Assembly (NCBI GenBank): GCA_021162935.1
Contig: JAGGXR010000028.1
Span: 1 to 64,000 of the forward strand
Source: Deltaproteobacteria bacterium
GTDB taxonomy: Bacteria; Myxococcota_A; Polyangia; HGW-17; SLPX01
Reading direction: 5' to 3'
Length of the DNA: 64,000 nt
The notes under the pieces are model-generated. The model worked only from the letters and a program-made list of their open reading frames with translations. It was not told where the DNA came from and searched no databases. The position numbers and the translations under genes were made by a program. Below are positions 8,924 to 31,779 of the stretch, piece after piece (the first letter of the stretch is position 1; every line of letters begins with the position of its first letter).

Positions 8924-10492
8924 CTATGGGAACGCCACGTCGAGCGGCGTCGTGCTGGGCTCGGTGGTGCCGTTGCCCAGCTGGCCCAGGTCATTGTTTC
9001 CCCAGCACTGCACATGCCCGGTTTCCAGCAGCGCGCAGCTATGCTCCCAACCAGCCTCCGCGTCTATCACCCCATGGTCGAGCCCCTGGACGGCGACAGG
9101 AGGCTGCGCTGTGGGGTAGGTCACCCCGTTGCCGAGTTGGCCCCAGTCGTTTTGGCCCCAGCACCAGGCAGCTCCCTCGGTCGTGGTGGCACAGGTATGG
9201 TGCCATCCCAACCAGATGGAGGCGACCGGCGGCAGACCTTTCACGGAAACCGGGGACAGTACATCCTCGTCAGGTTCGGTTGGCACGGCCTCCAATTGGT
9301 CATTGTGTCCCCAGCACCAGGCGGTCCCGGCCTCGTCGACTGCGCAGGCATAATGGTCGCCCATGTTGAGATACGCGACCGTCGAGATCGACTCGACCAC
9401 GAGGGGCACACAGGTCGAATCGTGGGTACCGTCACCGAGTTGGCCATGATCATTTCCGCCCCAACAGGCTATCTGGCCGATATCATGCAGTCGCACGCAG
9501 CAGCCACCGGCATCGCAGGAAACCTGTTCCACAGGTTCGTTCCATGTTCGAACGAACGGCGTTGGGTGAGGGCTTGCGGTTGACACCACGGGACAACCCA
9601 ACAAACCGTTTCTACTTATCCCCCAACAGGCAACCTCACGTTCCGAGGACTGGACCGCGCAGGAGACGTCCCAACCGACGTCGAGCCCCGTGATGTCCGT
9701 GCCGAGGCCTTCTGCCCGTTTCGGAACGGGCTGGGCGTGCAGGTACGTATTGCCGAGTTGGCCGAAGTTGTTCTGTCCCCAGCACCAGACGGCTCGGTCG
9801 GTCGCGTCTCCGTCTACGAGGGCGCAGACGTGATGGCCGCCCACGTCGACATGGATTGCGCTGCCAACACCTGGAATCAGAACCGGAATGGCGCTGTATG
9901 CCGTGGTTTCGTCGAGTCCGAGTTGCCCGTAATCGTTTTCGCCCCAGCACCAGACCGTGCCGTCGGCCCGGAGTGCGCAGTTCGTCTGAAAGCCTACGGC
10001 AAGTTGGACGAAGCCGCAGTCGGCAGGACAATTGTCGATAGTTTCTCCCAGAGCAAAGTCACAGACTCCGTCGTTGCAGTTCGCGCAGCCGGACGCATCG
10101 ATGCTGCAGTCATCGTTGCATGCCAGGCTTCCACTCGGATGTCCCAGGTCACGGCAGGTCGCATCCCGCAGGTCCGATCCGTCACAGGACTCCTGTCCTG
10201 CCGCAATACCATCCCCACAGGTGGCCTCGCACGCAGAAGGCTGCCCTGAGCAGCTCCAGCCCGGCTCCACCTTGCAGGCAGACGAGCATCCGTCACCATC
10301 AGTCTTGTTTCCATCGTCGCAAGACTCTGCTTGATCGATGAGTCCGTTCCCACAGACCATGCCGCCGTCTATGCCGCCGTCTCCCACCAGGACTGGAGGA
10401 AAATGGAGGGAACAGCCTGACAGGATCAGCAAGAAAGAAACACTTAATGTTGAGACGCCGCCCGTCATGCGCACTCTACAACCTTTCGCCAT
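8924..10492 (-). CDS. Surface lipoprotein with RCC1-type beta-propeller
   Basis: 522 residues. The lipobox LSGC lies in SFLLILSGCSLHF, so the mature protein is lipidated. Next come Cys-rich DUF4215-like segments (CGNGLIDQAESCDDGNKTDG and CGDGIAAGQESCDG). The rest is a propeller of about seven RCC1 repeats recognised by CWGENDYGQLG, CWGQNNFGQLG, CWGQNDWGQLGNG and CWGNNDLGQLGNG. Such proteins are common in Myxococcota; their ligand is unknown. The ATG at 10468 gives a more usual signal peptide and is an alternative start. A good promoter lies at 10615-10644. Confidence 0.88.
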   Translation of the reverse strand: MAKGCRVRMTGGVSTLSVSFLLILSGCSLHFPPVLVGDGGIDGGMVCGNGLIDQAESCDDGNKTDGDGCSSACKVEPGWSCSGQPSACEATCGDGIAAGQESCDGSDLRDATCRDLGHPSGSLACNDDCSIDASGCANCNDGVCDFALGETIDNCPADCGFVQLAVGFQTNCALRADGTVWCWGENDYGQLGLDETTAYSAIPVLIPGVGSAIHVDVGGHHVCALVDGDATDRAVWCWGQNNFGQLGNTYLHAQPVPKRAEGLGTDITGLDVGWDVSCAVQSSEREVACWGISRNGLLGCPVVSTASPHPTPFVRTWNEPVEQVSCDAGGCCVRLHDIGQIACWGGNDHGQLGDGTHDSTCVPLVVESISTVAYLNMGDHYACAVDEAGTAWCWGHNDQLEAVPTEPDEDVLSPVSVKGLPPVASIWLGWHHTCATTTEGAAWCWGQNDWGQLGNGVTYPTAQPPVAVQGLDHGVIDAEAGWEHSCALLETGHVQCWGNNDLGQLGNGTTEPSTTPLDVAFP

Positions 10493-11281
10493 GAGACCCT
10501 GCGAGAATCAGGCCCCGAAGCGTTCCGACCGTATCGGGTAGCGACAACGTGTCGGCAGAACTCCCTCGCTCGACGCCTCGATGTCCGCTGGAACCCACAT
10601 CATTTTAGGGCCAAATTATACCCTTGTGGTTCATTGTTTGTCGATACAAAATGTCAGTGAAGTTCGGTGCAGCACGCCGAGAATGACGGCGAAGCGCTCC
10701 TTGCCATCGAAGCCATGCCCCGCGCCGAGGAACAGAGGGCTCATATTTCCTGACGGACCGAGCGAGCAGGGCCTTGCCTGTGTTTGTCATTCAATGTCAC
10801 CAACCATCTTTGGCAGCGCCATGAGTTGACGATTGACGCACCTTTTTTGTCTCTTTCCCCCTTTTCATGTTTTTGGTAAAACACAAAACCAGTTTTCGGG
10901 AATGGCTTTGGGAATTGATCGCAGGAGTCCAAACGTTCGATGGTGGTGACTCACGACCTGCATCTGTCGAACGCGTCGCTTGTTTGTGCTTCAGGTGGCG
11001 ACCTCTTGCGGTAGGTGACCGTTCGTCCTGGTACGCTGTCTTCGGTGGGCGACGGTTGTTGAGCCCGTGTTTTTTGTTGGTGGTGATTCTCCGCGTCGTG
11101 GGGCGACGCAGCGCATTGTTCGGAGTGTTCAGTCGACATGAACGCAGCACATCGTTTCACGAATGTGTCCAGAGCGAGTGCAGGTATCATCCCTGCTCCT
11201 CTGCTTGATACGACCCCTGGTTCTTTGTCCCATACGGATCCGAGCCTCGTTTTGCTGTTTCGTCCTGCACAGGGACGCGGC
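10493..11281. other. Divergent intergenic region, about 790 bp
   Basis: No gene is supported. It is locally AT-richer than its surroundings (for example 10840-10890) and contains the minus-strand promoter at 10615-10644. Its -35 side overlaps the small inverted repeat TTTGTCGATACAAA (10637-10650), which could be an operator. Promoters toward the lipoprotein-kinase operon should lie in the right half, but none is clear by eye. Confidence 0.5.
10615..10644 (-). promoter_or_regulatory. Sigma70-type promoter for the RCC1 lipoprotein gene
   Basis: On the minus strand TCGACA (10644-10639) is followed by an 18-base spacer and a perfect TATAAT (10620-10615). It points to the lipoprotein gene starting at 10492 and implies a leader of about 110 bases. 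Confidence 0.55.
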
Positions 11282-13147
11282 ATGTTCCCCCTGCTTTTCG
11301 CCATCGTGGCATTGTTCATGCTCGGTTGCAGCGTGGTCGATCGATACGACAAGTGCCGCATTCCTGGCCAATGTCCCATCGAGGACAGCGCCCTGCTGTG
11401 CTCCGATGGCCAGGACAACGATGGCGACGGGCTCATCGACTGTTTCGATCCAGGTTGCGGTGCCTTCTGCCAGGAGGATACCAATGCCCTGTGCAGCGAC
11501 GGCCGCGACAACGACGACGATGGACTCGTCGATTGTGGGGACCCATCGTGCAGTGCGACTCAGGCCTGCTGTGAGGCGGGCGAGGACCGATGCTCGGATG
11601 GCGTGGACAACAACCTCGATGGCGCCATCGACTGTGACGACGAGGGTTGCTGTGAGACGCGGGTCTGTCACAATATGCGCCTGTGTGGGGTTGTGCTGCT
11701 CGACGATGACTTCTCTTCCGGTTTTGCTGCGCATGGTTGGCAGACCATTGCGCCGACCTCTGGATATGCTCGGGATCGAGATGTATCGGTGCAGGCCGAT
11801 GGCGCCCACATCGTTGTGGGGACGAGCCGCTATGCCTGCGAAGAAGAGGCGGGCATCGCCTGGTCGCAGCCGTTGGATCTCACGCGCGGCAGGCTCTCCA
11901 TCGAAGCCGACCTGATCGTGGACACTCCGCCGAACACCATCTATTACTCGAGTGCGATTGCCCTTACGGCGCACGTTGGAGGCCCCGAGTTTTTCGTATC
12001 ACCCAAGGGCGATTCCACGCAGCCGTGCCCCAGGCCGGACACTGCAGGCAGAGCACCGGCCTTGATGCTTCTGCTCTGGAAGACGGGGCATCGCAACTTG
12101 CTGTGGCGCTTCGACGGTACCGGAGACGAAGGGACCGCGGAGGCCGATCCTGCGACCCGCGGGCTCGCTCCGCCCGACCCCTCGACCGACCGGGAGACGA
12201 GTCGCGTGTGGCACGTTCGGATGGACCTGGATGATCAGCAGGTGGTCCTATTCGAAAGAGTGGACGGCGCATGGGTGGAGATGTATCGAACCGAGAATAG
12301 ACTCCCACACAGGACCTTTTACTTGAGTGTGCTCAGTGCCATCGACCAAGCCAGGGAGCACTCCGTCCAGGAGACGATCCTGCGACGCATCATTGTCCGA
12401 CAGCACGTGTCGGCGCACCCTTGGCGCATCATCTATGAGGATTCCTTCCACGCCGATCCGGATTGGCACGCCGACAAACCCGCTATGTGCAAGTGGGAGC
12501 AGTCCGACGACGCCATGTGGCTGCATTGGGAATCGGGCAGCGACGCGGCCTGCTACGAAACGTTGGCCGAGCCTTGGTCCCGTCAGCCGCTCAAGATGGA
12601 ATTTTCTTGGTACGTTTCCACGCTGAACTGGGCTAGCGGGATCATGCCGGGTCTCATGGATGCCTCCATGTACGATGCGGTCAGTTCGTTCGTTCGGGTG
12701 GGCACCGGAGACAACGACCACGGCGAGTATGTGGCGGGTCGTATTTGTGATCAGCGCTTCATACATTACGCCGACCACAGCGGCGATTATTCTCAGAAAT
12801 GGCTTCGGACCAGCATCCTGTACGATCCCCGCAGCGACCAGATGGCCGTGGACGTGTTCGATCCCAGCACCGACCGGCAGATCTATTACGCCGACCTGGA
12901 CCATCCGGTCTGCGCAGCCAGCATGCCGTACTTCGGCATCACGTCTCGCGGGTTCGACCGCTATGGGCCGGTGTTTAGTGAAGGACTGGTGGACGACGTC
13001 CGCATCCAGTATGGCCCGTCTGACGACGATGTCGAATGCAAGGATGGCGGTGTCTCAGCAGACGGTGGCCTGCCACGAGACGGGCGGCTGTCAGCAGACG
13101 GCGGACGTTCAGCGGACGGCGGCATTCCGATGGACGGTGGGCGATGA
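11282..13147 (+). CDS. Surface lipoprotein with MopE-type Asp/Cys motifs
   Basis: 621 residues from ATG 11282, chosen because it begins a clean lipoprotein signal (MFPLLFAIVALFMLGCS). Three Asp-rich Cys-bounded motifs follow (DGQDNDGDGLIDC, DGRDNDDDGLVDC, DGVDNNLDGAIDC) like the calcium-binding metal-motif repeats of MopE-like proteins. Two long beta-rich regions then resemble LamG-like jelly rolls, each opening with a phrase such as DDDFSSGFAAHGW or EDSFHADPDWH. The C-terminus is a low-complexity SADGG repeat. The stop overlaps the kinase start (ATGA at 13144-13147), so the two products are translationally coupled and probably act together at the envelope. Function otherwise unknown. Confidence 0.8.
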   Translation: MFPLLFAIVALFMLGCSVVDRYDKCRIPGQCPIEDSALLCSDGQDNDGDGLIDCFDPGCGAFCQEDTNALCSDGRDNDDDGLVDCGDPSCSATQACCEAGEDRCSDGVDNNLDGAIDCDDEGCCETRVCHNMRLCGVVLLDDDFSSGFAAHGWQTIAPTSGYARDRDVSVQADGAHIVVGTSRYACEEEAGIAWSQPLDLTRGRLSIEADLIVDTPPNTIYYSSAIALTAHVGGPEFFVSPKGDSTQPCPRPDTAGRAPALMLLLWKTGHRNLLWRFDGTGDEGTAEADPATRGLAPPDPSTDRETSRVWHVRMDLDDQQVVLFERVDGAWVEMYRTENRLPHRTFYLSVLSAIDQAREHSVQETILRRIIVRQHVSAHPWRIIYEDSFHADPDWHADKPAMCKWEQSDDAMWLHWESGSDAACYETLAEPWSRQPLKMEFSWYVSTLNWASGIMPGLMDASMYDAVSSFVRVGTGDNDHGEYVAGRICDQRFIHYADHSGDYSQKWLRTSILYDPRSDQMAVDVFDPSTDRQIYYADLDHPVCAASMPYFGITSRGFDRYGPVFSEGLVDDVRIQYGPSDDDVECKDGGVSADGGLPRDGRLSADGGRSADGGIPMDGGR

Positions 13148-15315
13148 CCGTCGAGCCCTGCCCCATCGAAGAAGGGACCACGATCGGTCAGTACCAGGTG
13201 CTCAAGCTCCTTGGTTCGGGAGGTATGGGCTGGGTCCTGGCCGGGATCCATCCGGTCATCGAAAAGCGAGCTGCCATCAAGGTGCTCAAGCCGGCCCTGG
13301 CACAGGACCCGGATGTTATGGAGCGGTTCATCGCAGAGGCGAAGGCGGTCAATCGGATCGGGCATCCGAACATCGTGGACATCTTTTCCTTCGGCTACAT
13401 CGACGAGGACATTCCTTACTTTGTTATGGAGTTCCTCAACAGCGGCAGCCTGCGTCAGTTGTTGGCCAAGGGCTGGAAGCCGAGCTTGGCTGCCTTCATG
13501 GAGTTGTTCGACCAGGTTCTTTCCGCGTTGGCTGCTGCGCACGAAGCAGGCATCGTGCACCGGGATCTCAAACCGGACAACATCTGCCTCCATCGAACCA
13601 CCGACCGTGTCGTGGCCAAACTGGTGGACTTTGGTGTCGCCAAGTTCGCCGAATCCGGGATCAAAACCGGCAAGACCCGGTCGGGCGTCCCCATCGGCAC
13701 CCCGTCGTACATGTCTCCGGAGCAGTGCCGCGGGCGCGGCATCGACCACCGGTCGGACATCTACGCCCTCGGTGTGATCATGTACGAGACCTTCACCGGT
13801 CGTCTGCCCTTCGAGTCGAATTCTTACGTCGAGGTGCTCATGGCACACGTCGAGGACCAACCCGACCCGCCGTCGCACATCGTGTCGATTGCTTCGGCCC
13901 TCGAAGCGGTCATCATGCGTTGCCTCGACAAGGATCCGACGGCACGTCCTCAAAGCGTGTCCGCACTCCGCGACGAACTGTGGCGCTGCTCGGGCCAGCA
14001 GCGTCCTCGGTCCATGGTCCGGCCCCTGACGGGCGCCGAGGGCGCAGTTCTACCCCTGGACACTGACCGGGATCCCTGGACAGGACCCTCGGGCCGCCTT
14101 GCCAGGTTGTCCCCCGAGGAGGTCCTGTCTGCGCAGGACGCATCGCCTTCTCCGGACACATCACCTTCGCGCGCCGCGTCGTTTTTGCAGGGTGCATCGT
14201 CTTCACAATCGGCTTCGTCCTCGTCACCGCGTTCGTCCACCAAAGCGGGTTGGCGATCGCAACCGGGCCGGGCAACGAAGGACCATTCGTACCATCGGCA
14301 GGGCCGGTTGGTGACAGGACGCAATGGACATGCTTCGTCGGCTCATGATTCCGCAGGAGAGCAACGAACGGGCCGCGAGGACATATCCATACCGGGCGGG
14401 CCCGACTCGGCCCAGGCAGCGGCCCAAGTTTCTGTTCAGGGTTCTGGCGACCTGGCTACTGGACCGACCTGGCATGCCGACTCATCGGCTTCTGGCTCTT
14501 TTTCCGGTCTCGGATCGAGCCCACAGATCGACTCCGGTCAGCCAGCCAGCACGACAGACGGCCAGTTGGTCGGCATTGGTCAGCCGTCCGGCACCACGGG
14601 AGCGCCTTCGGGCAACGTCGCCCATTCGTCGGGCACGACGGTTCCGGTAGGCCGCACGGCTGCTTTGAGACGGGCCAGCGTGATCGTCGGCATCCTGGCG
14701 GGGCTTGTGGCCGTTGTGCTGCTCGGCCTGCATTTTTCCTCCAAGTCATCTTCGCGCTCGTCTGTGCCTTCGTCTCTGCGTTCATGGGCACAGCCCTCGT
14801 CATCGACAACGCCCATTTCGGCGAGCCAGGATCAGTCGTCGGCCAGTGGCCCCAATCACGGGGACACAGCCGCTTCGCGCTCTGTACGCGAGGTGAATGG
14901 AGCAAACCAACGTTCGATCCGTGGTTCGACCACCGGCTCGCCTGCTGTCGCTTCCACCGGTTCGTCAGAGCATGGGTCGGGCGGACCAACGACGACCGCC
15001 CCAATCGCATCGGCCCGGAACTCGGTCCGTTCACCCCTTCGGACGGTCCGAGTGGAATCGCGGCCCACTGGCGCAAAGATTCGCATCGCAGGTCACTTCT
15101 GCGCTCGTGCTCCGACTACGTGTCGGATTTCTGGAACCAGTCGCAAAGTCTTGGTGCGGGCGTCCAAGTCGGGCTGGGAAACCAGATCGCGCTGGATCGA
15201 CCCACGAGCCACGAAGTTCGTTCGTTTCGTGCTCGTCCGAAAGACTCGATCGGCCCACCACCGCCCGGCGAGGAGGACCCGACCGCCCCGGGCAGGGTTC
15301 AAGTTCAGTCCGTAG
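13144..15315 (+). CDS. Transmembrane Ser/Thr protein kinase with C-terminal PEGA-like domain
   Basis: 723 residues. Hanks-type kinase domain 15-285: glycine loop GSGGMG (24-29), catalytic Lys46 in AAIKVLK, HRDLKPDN near 139, DFGVAKF near 162, activation-segment end GTPSYMSPEQ near 185 and the DIYALGVIMYE motif. A long Ser/Pro-rich linker follows (about 300-505), then one membrane helix (VGILAGLVAVVLLGLHF, about 512-530), more Ser-rich linker and a short extracytoplasmic PEGA-like domain (VRVESRPTGAKIRIAG). All kinase residues are present, so it should be active. The start is set by the ATGA overlap with the lipoprotein gene. Downstream lies the 41-bp repeat relay and the PEGA protein. Confidence 0.92.
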   Translation: MTVEPCPIEEGTTIGQYQVLKLLGSGGMGWVLAGIHPVIEKRAAIKVLKPALAQDPDVMERFIAEAKAVNRIGHPNIVDIFSFGYIDEDIPYFVMEFLNSGSLRQLLAKGWKPSLAAFMELFDQVLSALAAAHEAGIVHRDLKPDNICLHRTTDRVVAKLVDFGVAKFAESGIKTGKTRSGVPIGTPSYMSPEQCRGRGIDHRSDIYALGVIMYETFTGRLPFESNSYVEVLMAHVEDQPDPPSHIVSIASALEAVIMRCLDKDPTARPQSVSALRDELWRCSGQQRPRSMVRPLTGAEGAVLPLDTDRDPWTGPSGRLARLSPEEVLSAQDASPSPDTSPSRAASFLQGASSSQSASSSSPRSSTKAGWRSQPGRATKDHSYHRQGRLVTGRNGHASSAHDSAGEQRTGREDISIPGGPDSAQAAAQVSVQGSGDLATGPTWHADSSASGSFSGLGSSPQIDSGQPASTTDGQLVGIGQPSGTTGAPSGNVAHSSGTTVPVGRTAALRRASVIVGILAGLVAVVLLGLHFSSKSSSRSSVPSSLRSWAQPSSSTTPISASQDQSSASGPNHGDTAASRSVREVNGANQRSIRGSTTGSPAVASTGSSEHGSGGPTTTAPIASARNSVRSPLRTVRVESRPTGAKIRIAGHFCARAPTTCRISGTSRKVLVRASKSGWETRSRWIDPRATKFVRFVLVRKTRSAHHRPARRTRPPRAGFKFSP

Positions 15316-15318
15316 CTC

Positions 15319-15523
15319 GTGGTTGGCCACGGAAAGGACAGAACAGCAATGAAACAACGGTGGTTGGCCGCGGAAAAGACAGAACAACAATGAAACAACG
15401 GTGGTTGGCCGCGGAAAGGACAGAACAGCAATGAAACAACGGTGGTTGGCCACGGAAAGGACAGCACAGCAATGAAGCAACGGTGGTTGGCCGCGGAAAG
15501 GACAGAACAACAATGAAACACCG
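15319..15523 (+). repeat. Five tandem 41-bp repeats, each with a ribosome binding site and start codon
   Basis: Units begin at 15319, 15360, 15401, 15442 and 15483, always 41 bases apart. Each begins GTGGTTGGCC, carries GGAAAGGA and, 10 bases later, ATGAAACAACG. The last copy supplies the ribosome binding site and ATG (15513) of the PEGA protein gene. Copies differ at only a few positions, and none of the changes creates an early stop. The array starts 4 bases after the kinase stop codon. Confidence 0.95.
15349..15516 (+). other. Chain of four overlapping 14-codon mini-ORFs
   Basis: ORFs at 15349-15393, 15390-15434, 15431-15475 and 15472-15516 encode near-identical peptides (MKQRWLAAERTEQQ in two, with single or double changes in the others). 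Each stop TGA overlaps the ATG of the next ORF (ATGA), and the last overlaps the ATG of the PEGA gene at 15513. Each internal ribosome binding site lies inside the preceding mini-ORF. Translation of the peptides is inference; the geometry is directly visible. Confidence 0.7.
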
Positions 15524-17084
15524 CCGCCTCGTCCTTTCGTGTGGCATCTGGCTCTCCGTGTTCGGATCGAGCGGCCTGTTCCTGGCCACGCGGGTCGCTG
15601 ACGCGTCTCCGGCAACCGAATTTCGCTACCAGTTTCGCGAAGGGGTCGCCGCCTTGAAACGAGGCGACCTCCAAACGGCTCTCGATCGGTTTTTCTTGGC
15701 CAACCGCGCCGCGCCTAATCCAAACACCATTCGCAACATCGCCCTCTCCCTGGAGAAACTCGGTCGACTCCACGAAGCCTTTACCTTCTATCAAGAGCTT
15801 GCCTCCTTTCCAAACGTGGATGCCGAGAACAAGAAGTTTGCCCAGAAGGCCATTGCCCGTCTCCAATCCAAAGTGGCTCGGGTCCTCGTCCAGACCAATC
15901 CTCCTGGCGCTTTCCTTTACGTGGATCGTCGGTCGCTGGGCCAGTACGGATCCACTCCGGTGGTCGTCGCCCTTGCTCCAGGCCGCCATACCCTCATCCT
16001 GGAAAAGAAGGGCTATCACGGCACGAAAACTTCGGTCAGCATGACCATTGGTCGCCTCGTGCGCGTGCAGAGCACCTTGCGCCTCATTGCTGGAGCCATT
16101 TCCGTGCGCACCAGACCCAAGCAGGCCGACGTGTTGGTCGACGACGACACCGCCGCCCCGGTGGGTCGCAGTCCCATCATTTTGCGCCTCAGTCCTGGCC
16201 CGCACGTGATTTTTGTTCGGAAATCCGGCTATCTCGGTCAGACCCGACGCGTGGTCGTCAACGCCGAAGAGCGCCGTCGGATCGAGATAGTCCTGCGTCC
16301 AAAGCCCACGCAGACCGGTACCCTGAGCATCATGTCGAACGTCATGGGCGCCGTCGTCACCATCGACCAGCGGCCCGTCGGCATGACTCCGTTTTTTCGT
16401 ACCGACATCCCGGTCGGTACCCACGTCATCGCCGTCGCAGATCCCGGTCGGTTGAGCTGGCATGGCCCGGTCACCATACGACGAAAGGGCCGCGTCACCG
16501 TCATGGTCCAACTCGAACGACGCCCCACGCGGACCAGCTTTGGACCGTGGCCCTGGGTCGGGCTCGGCGTCGCCACCGCCACCCTCGTCGCTGGCATCAC
16601 CCTGGCAGGCCTGTCCCACAAGAACTACCTCGACTTCGAACATGCCGACGCTCCGACCATGGATAGCCTACACCGTGGCCAAAAGCTCGCCATCGCCGCC
16701 GACTCGGTTCTTGGAACCTTCCTGGTCAGCGGCATCGCAACCGCCGTCGCCTTCATCCTTTTGCGACCGCAGCCCTGGCATCCCTCCCGGGCCCGCGTCC
16801 AACAGGACCCGACCAAGCAGTTTCCCTCGCTCCACGACGGCTCGTTTGACGATGTATCGCCCAACGACGGCTCGTCTCACGGTGCATCACTCCACGACGG
16901 CTCGTCTCACGGTGCATCACTCCACGACGGCTCGTCTCACGATGTATCACTCCACGACGGCTCGTCTGACGATGTATCGCCCAACGACGGCTCGCCCGAC
17001 AGGTCGGTAGGCCACAACACGGCAGAACACAGGGTGACAGACCACGGCTTGCCGCATGCCGGGCGGCATGGTTCTAGAAAATGA
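15513..17084 (+). CDS. Exported or membrane-anchored TPR-PEGA repeat protein
   Basis: 523 residues from ATG 15513, which gives a signal-like N-terminus (MKHRRLVLSCGIWLSVFG). A TPR-like helical region (about 35-110, FREGVAALKRGDLQTALDRF) is followed by three PEGA domains (about 120-180, NPPGAFLYVD; 190-250, RPKQADVLVDD; 268-325, NVMGAVVTIDQRPVG). Two membrane-like helices (GVATATLVAGITLAGLS and FLVSGIATAVAFILL) precede a tail of 10-residue repeats. PEGA proteins bind other envelope components and often accompany Ser/Thr kinases in Myxococcota; here the upstream kinase also ends in a PEGA-like domain. The N-terminus MKHRR resembles MKQRW of the upstream mini-ORFs, suggesting the repeats arose by duplication of this gene's 5' end. 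Confidence 0.85.
   Translation: MKHRRLVLSCGIWLSVFGSSGLFLATRVADASPATEFRYQFREGVAALKRGDLQTALDRFFLANRAAPNPNTIRNIALSLEKLGRLHEAFTFYQELASFPNVDAENKKFAQKAIARLQSKVARVLVQTNPPGAFLYVDRRSLGQYGSTPVVVALAPGRHTLILEKKGYHGTKTSVSMTIGRLVRVQSTLRLIAGAISVRTRPKQADVLVDDDTAAPVGRSPIILRLSPGPHVIFVRKSGYLGQTRRVVVNAEERRRIEIVLRPKPTQTGTLSIMSNVMGAVVTIDQRPVGMTPFFRTDIPVGTHVIAVADPGRLSWHGPVTIRRKGRVTVMVQLERRPTRTSFGPWPWVGLGVATATLVAGITLAGLSHKNYLDFEHADAPTMDSLHRGQKLAIAADSVLGTFLVSGIATAVAFILLRPQPWHPSRARVQQDPTKQFPSLHDGSFDDVSPNDGSSHGASLHDGSSHGASLHDGSSHDVSLHDGSSDDVSPNDGSPDRSVGHNTAEHRVTDHGLPHAGRHGSRK
16830..17006 (+). repeat. Six 30-bp repeats in the C-terminus of the PEGA protein
   Basis: Units of 10 codons (LHDGSSHGAS and variants such as LHDGSFDDVS and PNDGSSHGAS) follow in frame from 16830. 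The three central copies are almost identical in DNA, indicating recent expansion just before the stop codon. Confidence 0.9.
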
Positions 17085-17595
17085 GCCACGCTTGGGCAAG
17101 ATTGAGCCGCTGAGATATAGGGGAGACCATTTTTCCGAATTGTCTCCGATGACCGGACTCAAGACCTCCGTCACCACACTGGCTGGCCATGTCGCGACGG
17201 AGGCGGCACGCCTCAGATGAGAAGCGAATCGGCCGGGCATCGGGGGAGCGGAAGCGGTTGGGGCCGTCGATCGAATCTACTTCAGTTTCTACCTGTCTGG
17301 CCGGCTTTCTGGTCCGCGACGATCGGGTCGTTCGCCCCATCGGTGCAGATAGTCGGCCAACCATCTTCGACTCACGCCCCCGGTCCCAGGATAGTTGTCG
17401 CTTGTGTTTGAGGGGGACGTTTCCATTTTGTCCATATTGCACTTGACTTGCAGGGGCATCCTTCGTACATGGCGAAAAAAGTTCCACATGATGCGAAGTT
17501 CGGCAGGAAAGAACGCTTGGGGGTGACAGGCGTCGCCCCATTGGTCCATGGTCGATTGGCCCATGGTCGATTGGTCCAGGGCGCGACGTGGTGGA
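17085..17595. other. Intergenic region of about 510 bp upstream of pyrR
   Basis: No gene is supported. It contains a possible promoter (17443-17471) and a 15-bp direct duplication that includes an ATG (17548-17562 and 17563-17577, each beginning ATGGTCGATTGG). No intrinsic terminator or tRNA was seen. Confidence 0.5.
17443..17471 (+). promoter_or_regulatory. Weak candidate promoter for the pyr operon
   Basis: TTGACT at 17443-17448, a 17-base spacer and TACATG at 17466-17471. Only the -35 is close to consensus. Confidence 0.25.
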
Positions 17596-17811
17596 GAGGT
17601 TCACCGGTACGAGTTTGACGAGGTTTGCCGATACCAGTTTGAGGAGGTTCACCGGTACGAGTTTGACGAGGTTCACCGGTACGAGTTTGACGAGGTTTGC
17701 CGGTACGAGTTTGACGAGGTTCACCGGTACGAGTTTGACGAGGTTTGCCGGTACGAGTTTGACGAGGTTCAGAAGTACTGGTTTGACGAGGTTCACAAAT
17801 CGCAGCAGCGA
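17596..17811 (+). repeat. Tandem 24-bp repeats directly upstream of pyrR
   Basis: Eight units (17596-17787) of the type GAGGTTCACCGGTACGAG plus TTTGAC, two main variants differing at the CAC/TGC codon, then one degenerate unit to 17811. The array ends 12 bases before the pyrR ATG and runs in frame with it, so a repeat-containing N-terminal extension (VHRYEFDE per unit, possible start ATG 17548) cannot be excluded. Confidence 0.92.
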
Positions 17812-17823
17812 GAGGAGTCACGT

Positions 17824-18501
17824 ATGACGTCGGTTTCGCAAACGCTGATGGATGAGAAGGCGATTGCACGGACGCTCCGCAGGATGGCTTCCGAGATCGT
17901 GGAACGAAACGAGGGGACGGATGACCTGTGTTTCGTTGGGATCCGGACCAGAGGTGTGGTGCTGGCCAATCGTCTCCAGGAGTTGGTCCGCCAAAAGGAA
18001 GACGTGCTGCTTCCGCTTGGGGTCGTAGACATCACGCTGTATCGCGATGATGCGATCCACGGGTTGCCCGATCCCGAGGTGGGGCCTACGCGTCTCGATT
18101 TTTCCATTCGAGACAAGAAGGTGGTGCTGGTCGACGATGTGCTCTACACGGGGCGCACGGTGCGGGCGGCGCTCGACGAGTTGATGGATTTTGGTCGGCC
18201 GAAAAAGGTGGAGCTGGCGGTGCTGGTGGATCGGGGATGGCGCGAGCTGCCCATCCAGGCGGACTACGTGGGTATTTCGCTGGATACGAAGCTCGACCAG
18301 CGGGTGCGGGTGCTGCTGACCGACCCTGACGGTCGTGAGGAAGTGGTCGTGTTGGCACTCACCGAGGAGTTGGACGGAGCAACCGAGGAGTTGGACGGAG
18401 CAACCGAGGAGTTGGACGGAGCAACCGAGGAGTTGGACGGAGCAACCGAGGAGTTGGACGGAGCAACCGAGGAGCCGAACAAGGGGGTGCGGAAGTCATG
18501 A
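17824..18501 (+). CDS. pyrR: PyrR bifunctional pyrimidine regulator / uracil phosphoribosyltransferase
   Basis: 225 residues from ATG 17824, chosen because [18 protein letters not shown] aligns with the start of Bacillus PyrR and GAGAGGAG precedes it. Core features match the family: [14 protein letters not shown], the PRPP loop [18 protein letters not shown], and [19 protein letters not shown]. In other bacteria PyrR binds pyr mRNA when UMP or UTP is high and has weak UPRTase activity. It is the first gene of a pyrR-pyrB-pyrC operon and overlaps pyrB by ATGA. The C-terminus beyond about residue 178 is an unusual acidic tail of five TEELDGA repeats not found in usual PyrR. Confidence 0.93.
18361..18474 (+). 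repeat. Five perfect 21-bp repeats at the end of pyrR
   Basis: ACCGAGGAGTTGGACGGAGC plus A is repeated without change at 18361-18465, then a 9-base partial copy. It encodes TEELDGA five times. Perfect codon identity indicates very recent expansion. The array ends 24 bases before the pyrB ATG. Confidence 0.97.
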
Positions 18502-19430
18502 GTTTTGGTCATCGACATTTGCTCGGTATCGAGCAACTGAGTCGGGAAGACATCCTGACGATTTTGAATTTGGCTGGCACCTTCAAGGAAATTTCCGAGC
18601 GCCGGATCAAGAAGGTGCCCACACTGCGCGGCCGCACGGTGGTGAACCTTTTCATGGAGCCATCGACAAGGACGAGGGTGTCCTTCGAAATCGCCGAGAA
18701 GCGGCTGAGCGCGGACGGGGTCAATATTTCCATCTCGACGTCGGCGGTGGTCAAGGGCGAGACGCTGCTGGACACGGCGAGGAACCTGCAGGCGATGAAT
18801 CCTGATGCGGTGGTGATTCGGCATTCGGCGGCGGGATCGCCGCACTTTTTGGCGCGCAATATTGCGGCGTCGGTGATAAACGCGGGCGATGGTTCCCACG
18901 AGCACCCCACGCAGGCACTGCTGGATTGCATGACGATCCGCGAGCACAAAAGCGAGTTCGAAGGGCTCAAGGTGGCGATCGTGGGCGACATTTCGCACAG
19001 TCGGGTGGCGCGGTCGGACATCCTGGCGCTTTCGAAGCTCGGTGCCAAGGTGGCGGTGGCAGGGCCGGCGACGATGCTCCAACCAGGGCTCGAGACGCTG
19101 GGATGCACGACACACACGCAGTTGGACAGTGCGGTGGAGGGCGCGGACGTGGTGATGATGCTTCGCATCCAAAAGGAACGGCTCGGAGGCGAGAGCCTCT
19201 TTGCGAATTCGAGGGAGTATGCCAGGACGTTCGGGTTGAATCGCAAGCGCCTGGATCTGCTCAAGCCCGATGCCATCGTGATGCATCCTGGACCCATCAA
19301 TCGAGGCGTGGAGATGCAGCCCGAGGTGGCGGACGGAAAGCAGTCGGTGATTCTGGAACAGGTGGCAAACGGAGTGGCCGTCCGCATGGCGGTGCTCTAC
19401 CTGCTTGCTGGCGAAAGTGAGGGTGCGTGA
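18498..19430 (+). CDS. pyrB: Aspartate carbamoyltransferase catalytic subunit
   Basis: 310 residues, normal length. It condenses carbamoyl phosphate and L-aspartate to N-carbamoyl-L-aspartate in pyrimidine synthesis. The carbamoyl-phosphate loop FMEPSTRTR, the mobile-loop motif [28 protein letters not shown] and MHPGPINRG are all present. The start overlaps the pyrR stop (ATGA at 18498-18501) and the stop is 1 base before the pyrC ATG, so the three are coupled. There is no pyrI regulatory subunit gene nearby. Confidence 0.97.
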
Positions 19431-19431
19431 C

Positions 19432-20754
19432 ATGGATCTGCTCATTGCCAACGCGAGACTGTTCGATCCGGAGAATAACTTGGACCAAGTGGGCGACCTG
19501 CTCGTTTCCAATGGTCGCATCGCTGCGGTAGGGTCTGGGCTCGCCGCAGGAAACGGCGTGCGTCGCATCGACGCATCGGGCAAGCTGGTGCTTCCCGGGT
19601 TGATCGACCTGCACGTGCATCTGCGCGAGCCTGGCCAGGAATATAAGGAAACCATCGCCACTGGGACGGCGGCTGCTGCGGCCGGTGGATTTGTCACCGT
19701 GGCTTGCATGCCGAATACCGAGCCGCCCAATGACTGCAAGGCGGTGACGGAATTGATCCTGAATCGGGCGAAGGAGGCGAATGCGAGCCGCGTGGTACCC
19801 ATCGGGACCATGACCAAGGGGCGGGCGGGCAAGACCCTGTCCGAGATGGGCGAGATGGCCGAGTTCGGCGTCAAGGCGGTTTCGGACGATGGCGACTCGG
19901 TGGCTGATTCTGGGCTCATGCGTCACGTGCTCGAATACGCCAAGACCTTCGGGTTGGTGGCGGTTCAGCATTGCGAGGACAAGGCGCTTGCCAAGGGCGC
20001 GCCGATGCACGAGGGCATCAATTCGGCAAGGGCCGGGCTGGCGGGCCAGCCGGCGGCTGCTGAGGCATCGATCCTGGCGCGTGATCTTTTGTTGGTTGCT
20101 CTGACCGGCGCTCGGTACCACGCGGCCCATGTGTCCACGGCCGAGTCGGTGGAGCTCATTCGTGGGGCCAAGGCGAAGGGACTGCCCGTGACCGCGGAAG
20201 CCACGATCCAGCATCTGACGTTTACGGATGAGGCGTGTCTGACCTATGACACGAAGACGAAGGTGAACCCGCCGTTTCGGACCGAGGCAGACCGGGCGGC
20301 GCTGCGAGAGGCGGTCGCCGACGGCACCATCGATGCCATCGTGACGGACCATGCGCCCCACTCGCGGATCGAAAAGGATCTCGAATATGACTACGCCGCT
20401 TTCGGCATCATGGGGCTGGAAACCGCCCTGCCGTTGGGCCTAGCGCTCGTCCGAGACGGCGTGTTCGACCTTGGGACCTTGATTCGGGCCTGGACGTCTC
20501 GGCCGGCGGCTGCATTCGGCCTGGACTGGCGCGGTTTGGTCGAGGGAGCCCCCGCAGACCTGGTCGTGGTGGACGAGAAACGGACCTGGACCGTGGAGCC
20601 GAAGAACCTGCGGAGCAAGGCGTCCAACACGCCGTTGTTGGGGCAGGATGTCACGGGTCGGGCGCTGCTCACCTTGGTGGACGGTCGGCCCGTGCACGAC
20701 GAGGTCGACGGGACCGGTTCCGGTGGCCGCACGGGAACCGTGGGAGCGAACTGA
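19432..20754 (+). CDS. pyrC: Dihydroorotase (class I)
   Basis: 440 residues. It cyclises N-carbamoyl-aspartate to dihydroorotate. The metal-binding HVHLREPGQEYKET, further His in VQHCED and HAAHVSTAESVELI, and the DHAPHSRIEKD motif mark the class I type that often forms a complex with PyrB. The ATG at 19432 is chosen over upstream in-frame codons because MDLLIANARLFDPENN is the normal family start. Third gene of the pyr operon. Confidence 0.96.
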   Translation: MDLLIANARLFDPENNLDQVGDLLVSNGRIAAVGSGLAAGNGVRRIDASGKLVLPGLIDLHVHLREPGQEYKETIATGTAAAAAGGFVTVACMPNTEPPNDCKAVTELILNRAKEANASRVVPIGTMTKGRAGKTLSEMGEMAEFGVKAVSDDGDSVADSGLMRHVLEYAKTFGLVAVQHCEDKALAKGAPMHEGINSARAGLAGQPAAAEASILARDLLLVALTGARYHAAHVSTAESVELIRGAKAKGLPVTAEATIQHLTFTDEACLTYDTKTKVNPPFRTEADRAALREAVADGTIDAIVTDHAPHSRIEKDLEYDYAAFGIMGLETALPLGLALVRDGVFDLGTLIRAWTSRPAAAFGLDWRGLVEGAPADLVVVDEKRTWTVEPKNLRSKASNTPLLGQDVTGRALLTLVDGRPVHDEVDGTGSGGRTGTVGAN

Positions 20755-20759
20755 CCACC

Positions 20760-21446
20760 ATGCATCCCTCTCCAGTCGATTGCGATGCGCTTCTTGGCGC
20801 CGTGAGTCAGGTCAAGGCGTTGCTAGACGGTGTCGGCGCCTGGATGGCTGAGGCGCCCCGCAAGGAACTGGCCCATCGAGGTCGGGAGAAGTTTTTCGAG
20901 CGAACCGGTCGGGTCAATGAAGACGATCGTTCCTTCGATGCGCGGATGAATGCCTTCCTCGAATTCTTGGTGCTGGACTGGAAGCCCGCAGATGTTCGGG
21001 GCAGGACACTCATCGAACTGTTCGTCGCAGAGCAGGGGCAGCGATTGTCGAAGCGGGATCTGGACCTGCTCGCGTCTGCGTCGGCGAGTCAGCGGAGTCT
21101 GTTCGAGTTGGTGGACAAGGGCAAGCGGGGCGCCATGTTCGGAGATCTACTCTACGGAGGTCGTTGGCGGATCGCCTGTTCCGAGCAGGTGTTGGGCGTG
21201 GATGCGGGTGATGTGATCGAGGCGCGCATTGTGAGCATCGACGGGAGCCTCGCTCTCCTTCCATCTATCTACCATCATCCATCGGAGGCGGCGGTTCTGG
21301 CGCGGACCATGGTGGAGGAGGGACTCAAGCGCAAAGAATCGCCGCGGGACCTTTCCGATCGGTTGGCCAGCATGCTTCTGCGCCACGACCGGTATCCTGG
21401 GATGAACCTGCGGCAGGCCTATGGCCCGGCCGGTCACGGTCACTGA
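20760..21446 (+). CDS. Conserved-looking protein of unknown function in the pyr operon
   Basis: 228 residues, starting 5 bases after the pyrC stop, so almost surely co-transcribed with pyrRBC. Predicted soluble, mixed alpha/beta, with no signal peptide. Visible blocks are HRGREKFFERTGRVNEDD, GRTLIELFVAEQGQRLSKRD, MFGDLLYGGRWRIACSE and a His-containing C-terminus (LRHDRYPGMNLRQAYG). I do not recognise a family. Its position suggests a cytoplasmic role, but there is no motif for a nucleotide enzyme. Confidence 0.75.
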   Translation: MHPSPVDCDALLGAVSQVKALLDGVGAWMAEAPRKELAHRGREKFFERTGRVNEDDRSFDARMNAFLEFLVLDWKPADVRGRTLIELFVAEQGQRLSKRDLDLLASASASQRSLFELVDKGKRGAMFGDLLYGGRWRIACSEQVLGVDAGDVIEARIVSIDGSLALLPSIYHHPSEAAVLARTMVEEGLKRKESPRDLSDRLASMLLRHDRYPGMNLRQAYGPAGHGH

Positions 21447-21506
21447 ATCGGAAGATGCCGGTTGGTTCATGGGGACGTTTGCTTGTTGAAAACGTAGATT
21501 TCTTGA

Positions 21507-21526
21507 TCCGTGATTTTTCTCACGGA
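21507..21526. promoter_or_regulatory. Inverted repeat upstream of the FG-GAP lipoprotein gene
   Basis: TCCGTGA (21507-21513) and TCACGGA (21520-21526) are perfect complements around TTTTTC. It could be an operator or a hairpin; it lies about 165 bases before the lipoprotein start and 60 bases after the pyr operon. Confidence 0.4.
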
Positions 21527-21691
21527 GATGTGGTACAGATCGGCCAATATGGAATGGGGTGGTGCTGATCGCTGGTGCCTCGATTTGGCTGCGACCCGGA
21601 CGGTGGCTGTGTTTGGGTTTGGTGGCCTGGGATTTGGCTCCGGTCGTGAGGGTCGGTATGCTTTCGTCGTGCGGGATCAAGGAGGTCACAG

Positions 21692-23998
21692 GTGACCATG
21701 AAATTATTGGGGAGAGGCTCGTTGGGGGTGATTCGTTCGTTGGGGGTGGGCGGCGCATTGCGGCTGGTCGGCGTGGTCGTGGTGGCCTTGTCGATAGTCG
21801 GCTGTCGATTCGACCCGACCGCGACCATGACGAAGGACGCCGAATTCGGCGATGCCCGTCCGGATCACGACGGGGGATGGGACGCTGGTGATGGGCGGGT
21901 GGACGGTGGCGAGGTTTCGTCGCCCATTGGAGTGAAGGTCGTGGGACAGGCGCGTCTCAATCCGGAAGACGTGGTGAACGAGGCGACGCAGCACGCGGTG
22001 GCCATCCAGGTGACCCTACCGGATGATTCGCTTGCCACGGATCGAGTTTTTTTGCAGGTCACCGATGGGACGAATTCGGTTCATGCAACTCCCATTCCTG
22101 CGCCGGACAGAGGCGGCGCGGTGATGTTCGACCAGGATTGTTCGCCTCTGGACGACGGGCCGGTGACCCTGCGCACCTGGGTGGCCAGGGGAGGAGCGAC
22201 GTCGTCGGTCACCGAAGGCCAGGCGGTCAAGGACACGCATTTGATCCTGTCGGTGGACCCGGTTGTCACGCCTGTGGCCGAGGATCACGAGGTGGTCAGC
22301 GGCCTCGTGGGGCCGGACGTGATCGAGTTGTCGGTCCGCAACGAGACCACGGGCGCCACCTCCTTGGCGACGTTCGGGGTTCGTGGTTTGTTTTTTTCAG
22401 ACGTGCAACTTACGCCGGGCGACAACCAGATTTCGGTGACGGGTACGGACGGGGCCTGGAATACGGGAACGGTGCATGTGGATCTGAAGAACGCGCCGCT
22501 CGTGATCCGCCAAGACGCCGGATACGGGATGGTTTTCGTGGAATCGACTGGAGCGTTTCCCTCGATTTCGGCGTCGGACACGAAGTGCTCAGGCGTGGTC
22601 GCCGCGGGCCTGGCGGACGGAGACGATGTGGTGGACCTGTTCGTATCGGGCTGTGAACACCTTTACGTGAACAACGGGCAGGGTGTTTTTCCCACCAAGG
22701 TCGTGACCGCAGTCATCGTTGGGGATCGTGGCGCTGTGTGGGCCGACTTCGACAACGACGGTGACTTTGACCTTGCGGTGGCTGGATTCAATCCGGCGCC
22801 GAGCAATCCGGTCCTCCATCTGTATCGGAACACGTTCAAGGAAACAGGGAGTCTGGATCTGGTGGACGCGACCGAGGTGAGCCTGACGCCCGACAATCCG
22901 GAAGGCCTGGCCTGGATGGATCAGGATGGAGACGGCCAGGTGGACCTCTTGCTCGAAGACGGCGATGGTGTTCGGCTCCTGCACAACGAGGGGAGTGGCA
23001 ATTTCTTCGTGGACCAGTCGGCGTCTCTGGGGTTGACGAGCGTCGATATCGACAACGGCGATTGGGTGGCAGTGGCGGATTTCGACCGCGATGGCGACGT
23101 GGACGCCGTGGTCGGGGCTGCCACGGGGCGCCTCTTCATCAACCAGGGAAGCTCGTTCATCGAAGAGCATCTGTCGCTTGGGTTGAGTTTTTCGCACGGT
23201 GACGGCCGTAAGTGGGGCCTGTGCTGGGGGGACTATGACAATGACGGCGACTTCGATTTGTGGCTTCGAGACAGCGAGATGATCTTTGGACCATACAACG
23301 CGGTTTTTTCCTGGGATGCGACGAGGTTTGATTCAGTGGGAGTGGCTTTCGGAGTCGATCATCCTGCTGCGATCGACGATGCGGCCTGGGGCGACGTGAA
23401 CAACGATGGATTGCTGGATCTGGTTTGGATGATCGGGTCGCCCGGCGCGTATCAGGTGGTCGTGGCCTTGAATCAGGCGGATTCGGACGGGGATGGACAG
23501 TGGACGTTTGACGTGCAGACGCTTCCAGATACGATTCCCTGGTCCCAGGTCATCGAGACGCTGCTCCTCGAAGACGTGGATCAGGACGGAGACCTGGATC
23601 TCGTGGTTGGTCGTGTGGGCGCATCGCCCGCGGTGCTGCTCAACGGACGTAACGATGACAGCCAGGCACATGTGGATCCTCGCTACCTGCGGGTGCGCCT
23701 GTCCGGATCGGCTCCGAATCCAGGTGGCGGAAACAAGGGAGCGATTGGGGCCGTGGTGGAACTGCACGACCCGGACAGCCAGGGCAACTGTCAGATTCCC
23801 GGGGCGCTTCTGGCCACGAGGCAGGTCGACGGTGGGCGGGGAAACGGAGGCCAGGAGTCGCCGATTTTGTTCTTTGGCGGGCTGCATCTCTCTGCGACCT
23901 ACTGCGTGGTGGCCTATTTTCCAGGGCAGGCGCAGCCTGTGACAGCGCGCGTCCGGCCCAGAGCGTATCTCGATGGGGTCTTCCATCTGGACCAGTAG
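21692..23998 (+). CDS. FG-GAP/VCBS repeat lipoprotein
   Basis: 768 residues from GTG 21692 (AAGGAGG 5-6 bases upstream; ATG 21698 is also possible). The lipobox is SIVGC near residue 35, followed by an Asp/Gly-rich linker. From about 280 come FG-GAP-type calcium motifs (DFDNDGDFDLAVAG, DQDGDGQVDLLLED, DFDRDGDVDAVVG, DYDNDGDFDLWL, DVNNDGLLDLVW, DVDQDGDLDLVVG), which form a beta-propeller. The end (RYLRVRLSG, GNGGQESPILFFGG) resembles ASPIC/UnbV domains. Surface protein, probably adhesive or ligand-binding; partner unknown. Confidence 0.88.
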   Translation: MTMKLLGRGSLGVIRSLGVGGALRLVGVVVVALSIVGCRFDPTATMTKDAEFGDARPDHDGGWDAGDGRVDGGEVSSPIGVKVVGQARLNPEDVVNEATQHAVAIQVTLPDDSLATDRVFLQVTDGTNSVHATPIPAPDRGGAVMFDQDCSPLDDGPVTLRTWVARGGATSSVTEGQAVKDTHLILSVDPVVTPVAEDHEVVSGLVGPDVIELSVRNETTGATSLATFGVRGLFFSDVQLTPGDNQISVTGTDGAWNTGTVHVDLKNAPLVIRQDAGYGMVFVESTGAFPSISASDTKCSGVVAAGLADGDDVVDLFVSGCEHLYVNNGQGVFPTKVVTAVIVGDRGAVWADFDNDGDFDLAVAGFNPAPSNPVLHLYRNTFKETGSLDLVDATEVSLTPDNPEGLAWMDQDGDGQVDLLLEDGDGVRLLHNEGSGNFFVDQSASLGLTSVDIDNGDWVAVADFDRDGDVDAVVGAATGRLFINQGSSFIEEHLSLGLSFSHGDGRKWGLCWGDYDNDGDFDLWLRDSEMIFGPYNAVFSWDATRFDSVGVAFGVDHPAAIDDAAWGDVNNDGLLDLVWMIGSPGAYQVVVALNQADSDGDGQWTFDVQTLPDTIPWSQVIETLLLEDVDQDGDLDLVVGRVGASPAVLLNGRNDDSQAHVDPRYLRVRLSGSAPNPGGGNKGAIGAVVELHDPDSQGNCQIPGALLATRQVDGGRGNGGQESPILFFGGLHLSATYCVVAYFPGQAQPVTARVRPRAYLDGVFHLDQ

Positions 23999-31571: not shown

Positions 31572-31779
31572 CCGTAGGCGCGGACCGTAGGCGCGGACCG
31601 TAGGCGCGGACCGTAGGCGCGGACCGCAGGCGCGGACCGTAGGCGCGGACCGCAGGCGCGGACCATAGACGCAGACCGTAGGCGCGGACCGTAGGCGCGG
31701 ACCGTAGGCGCGGACCGTAGGCGCGGACCGCAGGCGCGGACCATAGACGCAGACCGTAGGCGCGGACCGCAGGCGCGGA
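31572..31779. repeat. Sixteen tandem 13-bp repeats between GNAT and ruvX genes
   Basis: The unit CCGTAGGCGCGGA is repeated exactly 16 times with no gaps. Variant units are CCGCAGGCGCGGA (31624, 31650, 31728, 31767) and CCATAGACGCAGA (31663, 31741); the last two are 78 bp apart, showing a higher-order duplication of six units. It begins 27 bases upstream of the GNAT start. All minus-strand frames stay open, but no protein is implied. Confidence 0.97.

Follow-up and report, generated by a model that had tools for sequence, protein, structure and literature searches.

Between a protein kinase gene and the gene for a PEGA-domain protein, the stretch of DNA analysed here (the window, 64,000 nucleotides) carries a short tandem array in which copies of a translation start follow one another and run into the PEGA gene. 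The locus raises the question of whether the length of this array is an evolved dial on PEGA output, or whether the chain of starts arose by chance when a start region was duplicated in a repeat-rich genome. The features on which the argument depends are the following:

13144..15315, plus strand: Ser/Thr protein kinase gene, stop TAG at 15313-15315; Pkinase domain 17-277 (Pfam PF00069, E=1.6e-47)
15319..15359, plus strand: repeat unit 1, SD GGAAAGGA, ATG at 15349
15360..15400, plus strand: repeat unit 2, SD weakened to GGAAAAGA, ATG at 15390
15401..15441, plus strand: repeat unit 3, ATG at 15431
15442..15482, plus strand: repeat unit 4, ATG at 15472
15483..15523, plus strand: repeat unit 5, with the PEGA gene's own SD and start codon (ATG at 15513)
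15349..15393, plus strand: mini-ORF 1, 14 codons (MKQRWLAAEKTEQQ, then stop), TGA at 15391, ATGA overlap with mini-ORF 2
15390..15434, plus strand: mini-ORF 2, 14 codons (MKQRWLAAERTEQQ, then stop), TGA at 15432, ATGA overlap with mini-ORF 3
15431..15475, plus strand: mini-ORF 3, 14 codons (MKQRWLATERTAQQ, then stop), TGA at 15473, ATGA overlap with mini-ORF 4
15472..15516, plus strand: mini-ORF 4, 14 codons (MKQRWLAAERTEQQ, then stop), TGA at 15514, ATGA overlap with the PEGA start at 15513
15513..17084, plus strand: PEGA protein gene, 523 aa, three PEGA domains (Pfam PF08308, 3 stretches, E=1.8e-32)

The start codon of the kinase gene is uncertain (its ORF opens at 13036), and a C-terminal stretch of the kinase (634-696) is weakly PEGA-like (E=5.5e-4, just below the Pfam cut-off). 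The PEGA protein begins with a signal-like segment, judged by eye (MKHRRLVLSCGIWLSVFGSSGLFLATRVADASPA), which together with the three PEGA domains makes 15513 a credible start. From the kinase stop at 15315 to the first array ATG at 15349 there are 33 untranslated nt, more than the distance of about 20 nt from stop to next start that we took as close. The full gap between the kinase and PEGA genes is 197 nt; it would be 33 nt with a single unit.

A 41-bp tandem repeat was detected by TRF at 15319-15520 (4.9 copies, 92% matches, score 355). Set in register, it forms five full 41-bp units (15319-15523) with one ATG per unit, a count that could be wrong because the single assembly is metagenome-like and fragmented (168 contigs); each unit has its own combination of variants, which makes the array easier to assemble. 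Such head-to-tail units of high identity, within the 10-100 bp range, are those of a minisatellite. The unit has exactly five matches genome-wide, with no reverse matches and no matches in the control, which is far above what chance would give and makes the array unique in the genome.

The initial annotation had given each of the five tandem units a ribosome-binding site and an ATG. The units and ATGs are present as described, and the SD core GGAAAGGA occurs in 4 of 5 units, but unit 2 carries GGAAAAGA in its place, with an anti-SD duplex of -3.5 kcal/mol as against -5.6 kcal/mol for GGAAAGGA. The 16S 3' end (GGATCACCTCCTTT) was found in the same genome, for which an SD at -5.6 kcal/mol is ordinary (median -6.8), and the SD strength of units 1, 3 and 4 equals that of the PEGA start. 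The chain itself, four 14-codon ORFs linked by TGA/ATG overlaps with the last running onto the PEGA start at 15513, was verified at all coordinates, and its four ATGA junctions show the 4-nt stop/start overlap of coupled genes. The 41-bp period and the four overlapping bases add up to 45 bases, or 15 codons including the stop; that gain or loss of whole units leaves the final frame and the last start intact, as had been claimed, holds by construction of this arithmetic.

How often such arithmetic arises by chance was estimated by duplicating in silico the start regions of the 572 ATG genes of the source genome. About 10% of random 22-60 bp duplications, and 30% at period 41, joined the copied ORF to the following start by an ATGA overlap; for the PEGA gene itself the share was about 33% over periods 22-60. 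A relay takes three things: a period of 2 mod 3, an A directly after the ATG (true of 42% of this genome's ATG genes) and the absence of an intervening stop. A single duplication event fixes the frame arithmetic, so later copies repeat it for free. The arithmetic requires no design, being a 1-in-3 to 1-in-10 by-product of start-region duplication. A scan for coupled short-ORF chains yielded 9 loose five-member chains, compared with about 19 per Markov replicate, and the chain at the PEGA junction was the sole all-ATG, evenly spaced one.

Tandem repeats are common in this genome. A sample of 1.95 Mb (38% of the genome; arrays of period at least 9) contained 352 tandem arrays covering 2.1% of bases, and array density in sampled relatives ran from 1 to 40 per 100 kb. 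In a 1.35-Mb subset, 103 arrays within called genes were in-frame and 6 were not, as against 43 and 69 in intergenic DNA (genes being called by a home-made caller that missed the kinase gene), which indicates that arrays that break the frame persist mostly in non-coding DNA.

Four more arrays lie within 3.2 kb of the PEGA-start array (16830, 17540, 17596 and 18361). The 30-bp array at 16830-16994 encodes repeats of the LHDGSSHD type in the PEGA protein's C-terminal part. At 17596-17796, a 24-bp array of 8.4 copies ends shortly ahead of the probable start of pyrR (ATG 17824, SD GAGAGGAG) and is open in the pyrR frame (EVHRYEFD repeats), as either a leader array or an N-terminal extension. A perfect 21-bp array of 5.4 copies at the 3' end of pyrR (18361-18474) adds TEELDGA repeats to the PyrR C-terminus, after which pyrR and pyrB are joined by an ATGA overlap (18498). 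Elsewhere in the window, at 31572-31779, a 13-bp array of 16 copies (CCGTAGGCGCGGA) is situated outside the genes found by the simple caller.

Gene starts do not fall inside arrays more often than expected: random placement predicted about 8 such cases in the gene-called part, and about five genes were seen in all, namely PEGA, a pgsA-like gene (L036), a beta-helix protein (L065), a C39-like peptidase (L083) and a candidate (L030). Three of the five arrays are in-frame and offer alternative starts. The beta-helix protein (minus strand, 27 bp x4.2, in-frame) and the peptidase (minus strand, 51 bp x2.4, in-frame) both look secreted, and each of their repeat units carries an SD-like purine run and an ATG, giving several alternative in-frame starts.

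Frame-breaking duplications of a start were accepted in two cases. Besides the array at PEGA, a 20-bp unit is present twice (ATGAGGACGGAACGCACCAC) at the start of the pgsA-like CDP-alcohol phosphatidyltransferase gene (L036:414-452; G000 contig C11), where it creates a 7-codon mini-ORF (MRTERTT, then stop) with an ATGA overlap onto the second ATG and thus a two-unit relay; no comparable duplication was found in the readable relatives of this gene. A third listed case, L139, looks spurious (147-codon GTG frame) and was discarded. Both accepted cases (PEGA, 41 bp; pgsA-like, 20 bp) are ATGA relays, as against an expected share of about 15% per non-3n case (0.101/0.666; p about 0.02, post hoc, n=2). 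This is a hint that more than chance, namely a filter on survival, is at work, and it counts against a purely neutral reading. A broader proposition, which we consider unlikely, is that in this repeat-rich genome frame-breaking start duplications survive only when ATGA re-initiation links the starts; coupled mini-ORF chains such as those at PEGA and the pgsA-like gene would then build spontaneously, and changes in their length could shift output without a frameshift.

We looked for the same arrangement in relatives. In most of the best PEGA hits, all from the same class, the PEGA gene directly follows a same-strand kinase gene (L007, L010, L011, L012, L013, L014, L015, L017, L020, L025). Candidate PEGA starts, inferred from sequence for some of the comparison genes, typically fall -11 to about +107 nt from the kinase stop, that of L014 being uncertain and perhaps more distant. 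Several relatives, with candidates at -11, -7, +1, +11 and +13 nt, would permit direct coupling, whereas gaps of about 60-110 nt in others show that tight coupling is not universal. Comparison of array length across relatives, which the initial annotation had proposed, encountered only junctions without any array among the related loci examined, and as far as can be seen from these the array is private to the source genome.

The partnership of kinase and PEGA protein, also suggested by the initial annotation, gained support from this gene order, which the majority of the best related loci keep, and from a relative whose kinase and PEGA domains lie in a single open frame: L009:1384-3939 (minus strand) contains kinase, TPR-like and PEGA domains and is possibly a fusion. 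Judging from these loci, the two proteins are likely to act as partners. By eye, the open frame of L009 runs on into an apparent TonB plug. A query of the genome collection with the PEGA protein returned no close relative holding the locus. With PyrB as query, the best neighbour was a Deltaproteobacteria MAG (77%), and the comparison puts the organism, an uncultured bacterium and apparently a myxococcote, near Deltaproteobacteria/Myxococcota MAGs; the pyrRB loci of the 15 best PyrB neighbours had no kinase-PEGA pair nearby, with one distant kinase fragment in L172.

Differences among the units bear on the history of the array. Within the mini-ORFs, three are non-synonymous (positions 11, 18 and 24) and two synonymous (28 and 36), and these tiny numbers, five differences in all, give no sign of purifying selection on the mini-ORF peptide. 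Although units differ at up to 5 of 41 bases, none of the five ATGs and four TGAs has been lost, an observation with almost no power when changes are so few. One pair of variants at positions 11 and 28 is common to units 1 and 4, another to units 2 and 5; these two sites suggest that copy number probably changed in steps, with a past gain of three units (123 bp). A structured or regulatory RNA leader was rejected, the RNA of the array folding no better than shuffles (z -0.39) and the region 9000-23000 giving no Rfam match. No internal sigma-70 promoter was found in a consensus scan. The units were also considered as transcription-factor iterons, and nothing spoke for or against this.

Taken together, the array is probably a minisatellite that arose by tandem duplication of the PEGA translation-initiation region in a repeat-rich genome, with mini-ORFs that are probably translated and would exert a modest effect. 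The duplicated segment would have comprised the SD, the ATG and the first 11 nt of the PEGA coding sequence. With a period of 41 (2 mod 3) and a second codon that begins with A, each copied start becomes a 14-codon ORF with an ATGA overlap, and copied starts linked in this way would not have destroyed PEGA expression. Transcription presumably runs through the array, and translation of PEGA most likely starts at ATG 15513, directed by the gene's own SD; since every unit, including the last, has an SD and an ATG, PEGA is translatable without the chain.

The mini-ORFs are probably translated too, by fresh initiation at their own SDs and not by ribosomes derived from the kinase gene. A relay from the kinase is not supported, since in E. 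coli most re-initiation is lost across a gap as wide as these 33 nt. In that organism 4-nt overlaps couple well, whereas 38 nt from stop to start loses 80-100% of re-initiation (PMC10666635); a 40-nt gap leaves <3%, and re-initiation increases over threefold when an SD is added (PMC2268962). Hand-over from the kinase would thus be weak and the chain loaded mainly inside the array. There the -4 overlaps, each with an SD, would by analogy be ideal junctions for coupling, and the mini-ORFs may pass some ribosomes on, either because these re-initiate or because the following SD is kept free of structure. According to one E. coli study (PMC7538156), coupling does not depend critically on ribosome recycling factor, which would make SD unfolding an alternative to true re-initiation.

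We modelled the chain with an initiation rate i per unit and a fraction r of ribosomes passed on, such that PEGA receives i(1-r^n)/(1-r), with a ceiling of 1/(1-r). Between three and five units, output rises from 1.39 i to 1.43 i at r=0.3, from 1.75 to 1.94 at r=0.5 and from 2.44 i to 3.36 i at r=0.8. A strong dial would need very efficient re-initiation; short of that, the effect on PEGA output is expected to be modest and to saturate after two or three units. Ribosomes on a mini-ORF might also block the SD that follows, an effect that the model leaves out and that could make extra units harmful.

These results bear on the copy-number-tunable relay put forward initially, taken here as a selected one whose length has evolved as a dial on PEGA output through chained termination and re-initiation, with slippage supplying the variants. 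The clean chain of four 4-nt overlaps, the variants common to units 1/4 and 2/5 that suggest past multi-unit gains, the second ATGA relay at the pgsA-like gene and the finding that a short upstream ORF boosts expression in E. coli (PMC13255528) all fit it. We nevertheless find it quite unlikely: related kinase-PEGA junctions lack the array, 10-33% of start-region duplications give an ATGA relay anyway, and the modelled output saturates (1.75 to 1.94 from three to five units at r=0.5). Moreover, the kinase stop is 33 nt distant, the mini-ORF peptide carries no signal of purifying selection, and every unit has its own SD and ATG. Copy-number tuning of PEGA is possible on the sequence, and checks of sequence, relatives, structure and selection gave no sign that the array is used as a dial.

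At the other extreme, the mini-ORFs may be barely translated and PEGA freshly initiated at the SD of unit 5, which would leave the array an inert intergenic minisatellite. This is consistent with an ATG and SD in each unit including the last (the SD of unit 2 being weakened) and with the abundance of intergenic arrays of all periods in the genome, but units 1, 3 and 4 match the PEGA start in SD strength and should initiate if PEGA does; we regard it as unlikely. Very improbable is an array that lowers PEGA output or uncouples it from the kinase, be it by ribosomes occupying downstream SDs or by a 197-nt gap that breaks an ancestral coupling: several relatives, at -11 to +13 nt, allow direct coupling, yet several others are also gapped by about 60-110 nt. 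A duplicated initiation region with modestly acting, probably translated mini-ORFs is the reading that we prefer.

Bacterial minisatellites or VNTRs upstream of genes resemble the array in being head-to-tail, about 40 bp in unit length, gene-adjacent and likely copy-variable. They differ in that the unit here includes an SD and a start codon, and so forms potential ORFs, not inert spacers or promoter elements. The kinase-then-PEGA order of related genomes is like that of the window in order and domains, while the array occupies the junction only here among the loci examined. ATGA-coupled gene pairs (Huber et al. 2019, PMC6728339; 2023, PMC10666635) share with the array the 4-nt overlap and an SD inside the upstream ORF; unlike theirs, its upstream ORFs are four near-identical 14-codon repeat products and not real genes, and its coupling is predicted. 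In synthetic bicistronic designs and 'nonsense' uORF boosters (PMC13255528, PMC5995908, PMC10367133), the leader ORF likewise holds the next SD and ends at or near the next start, but these described devices use one leader ORF, whereas the array is natural and reiterates it four times at 14 codons each. In a literature search that covered few subscription journals, no description emerged of a natural array that repeats SD and ATG as a coupled chain. By analogy, the array would work like ATGA coupling combined with a repeated bicistronic design, while being a minisatellite by origin; the facts are covered by a neutral reading.

If the mini-ORFs are untranslated, the array would be an ordinary minisatellite and a caution that duplication can yield tidy frame arithmetic for free. 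If they are translated, it would be a natural, reiterated form of the engineers' bicistronic design and would show ATGA re-initiation making a frame-breaking start duplication tolerable. It would then also allow a direct test of the number of times that a bacterial ribosome can re-initiate in succession.
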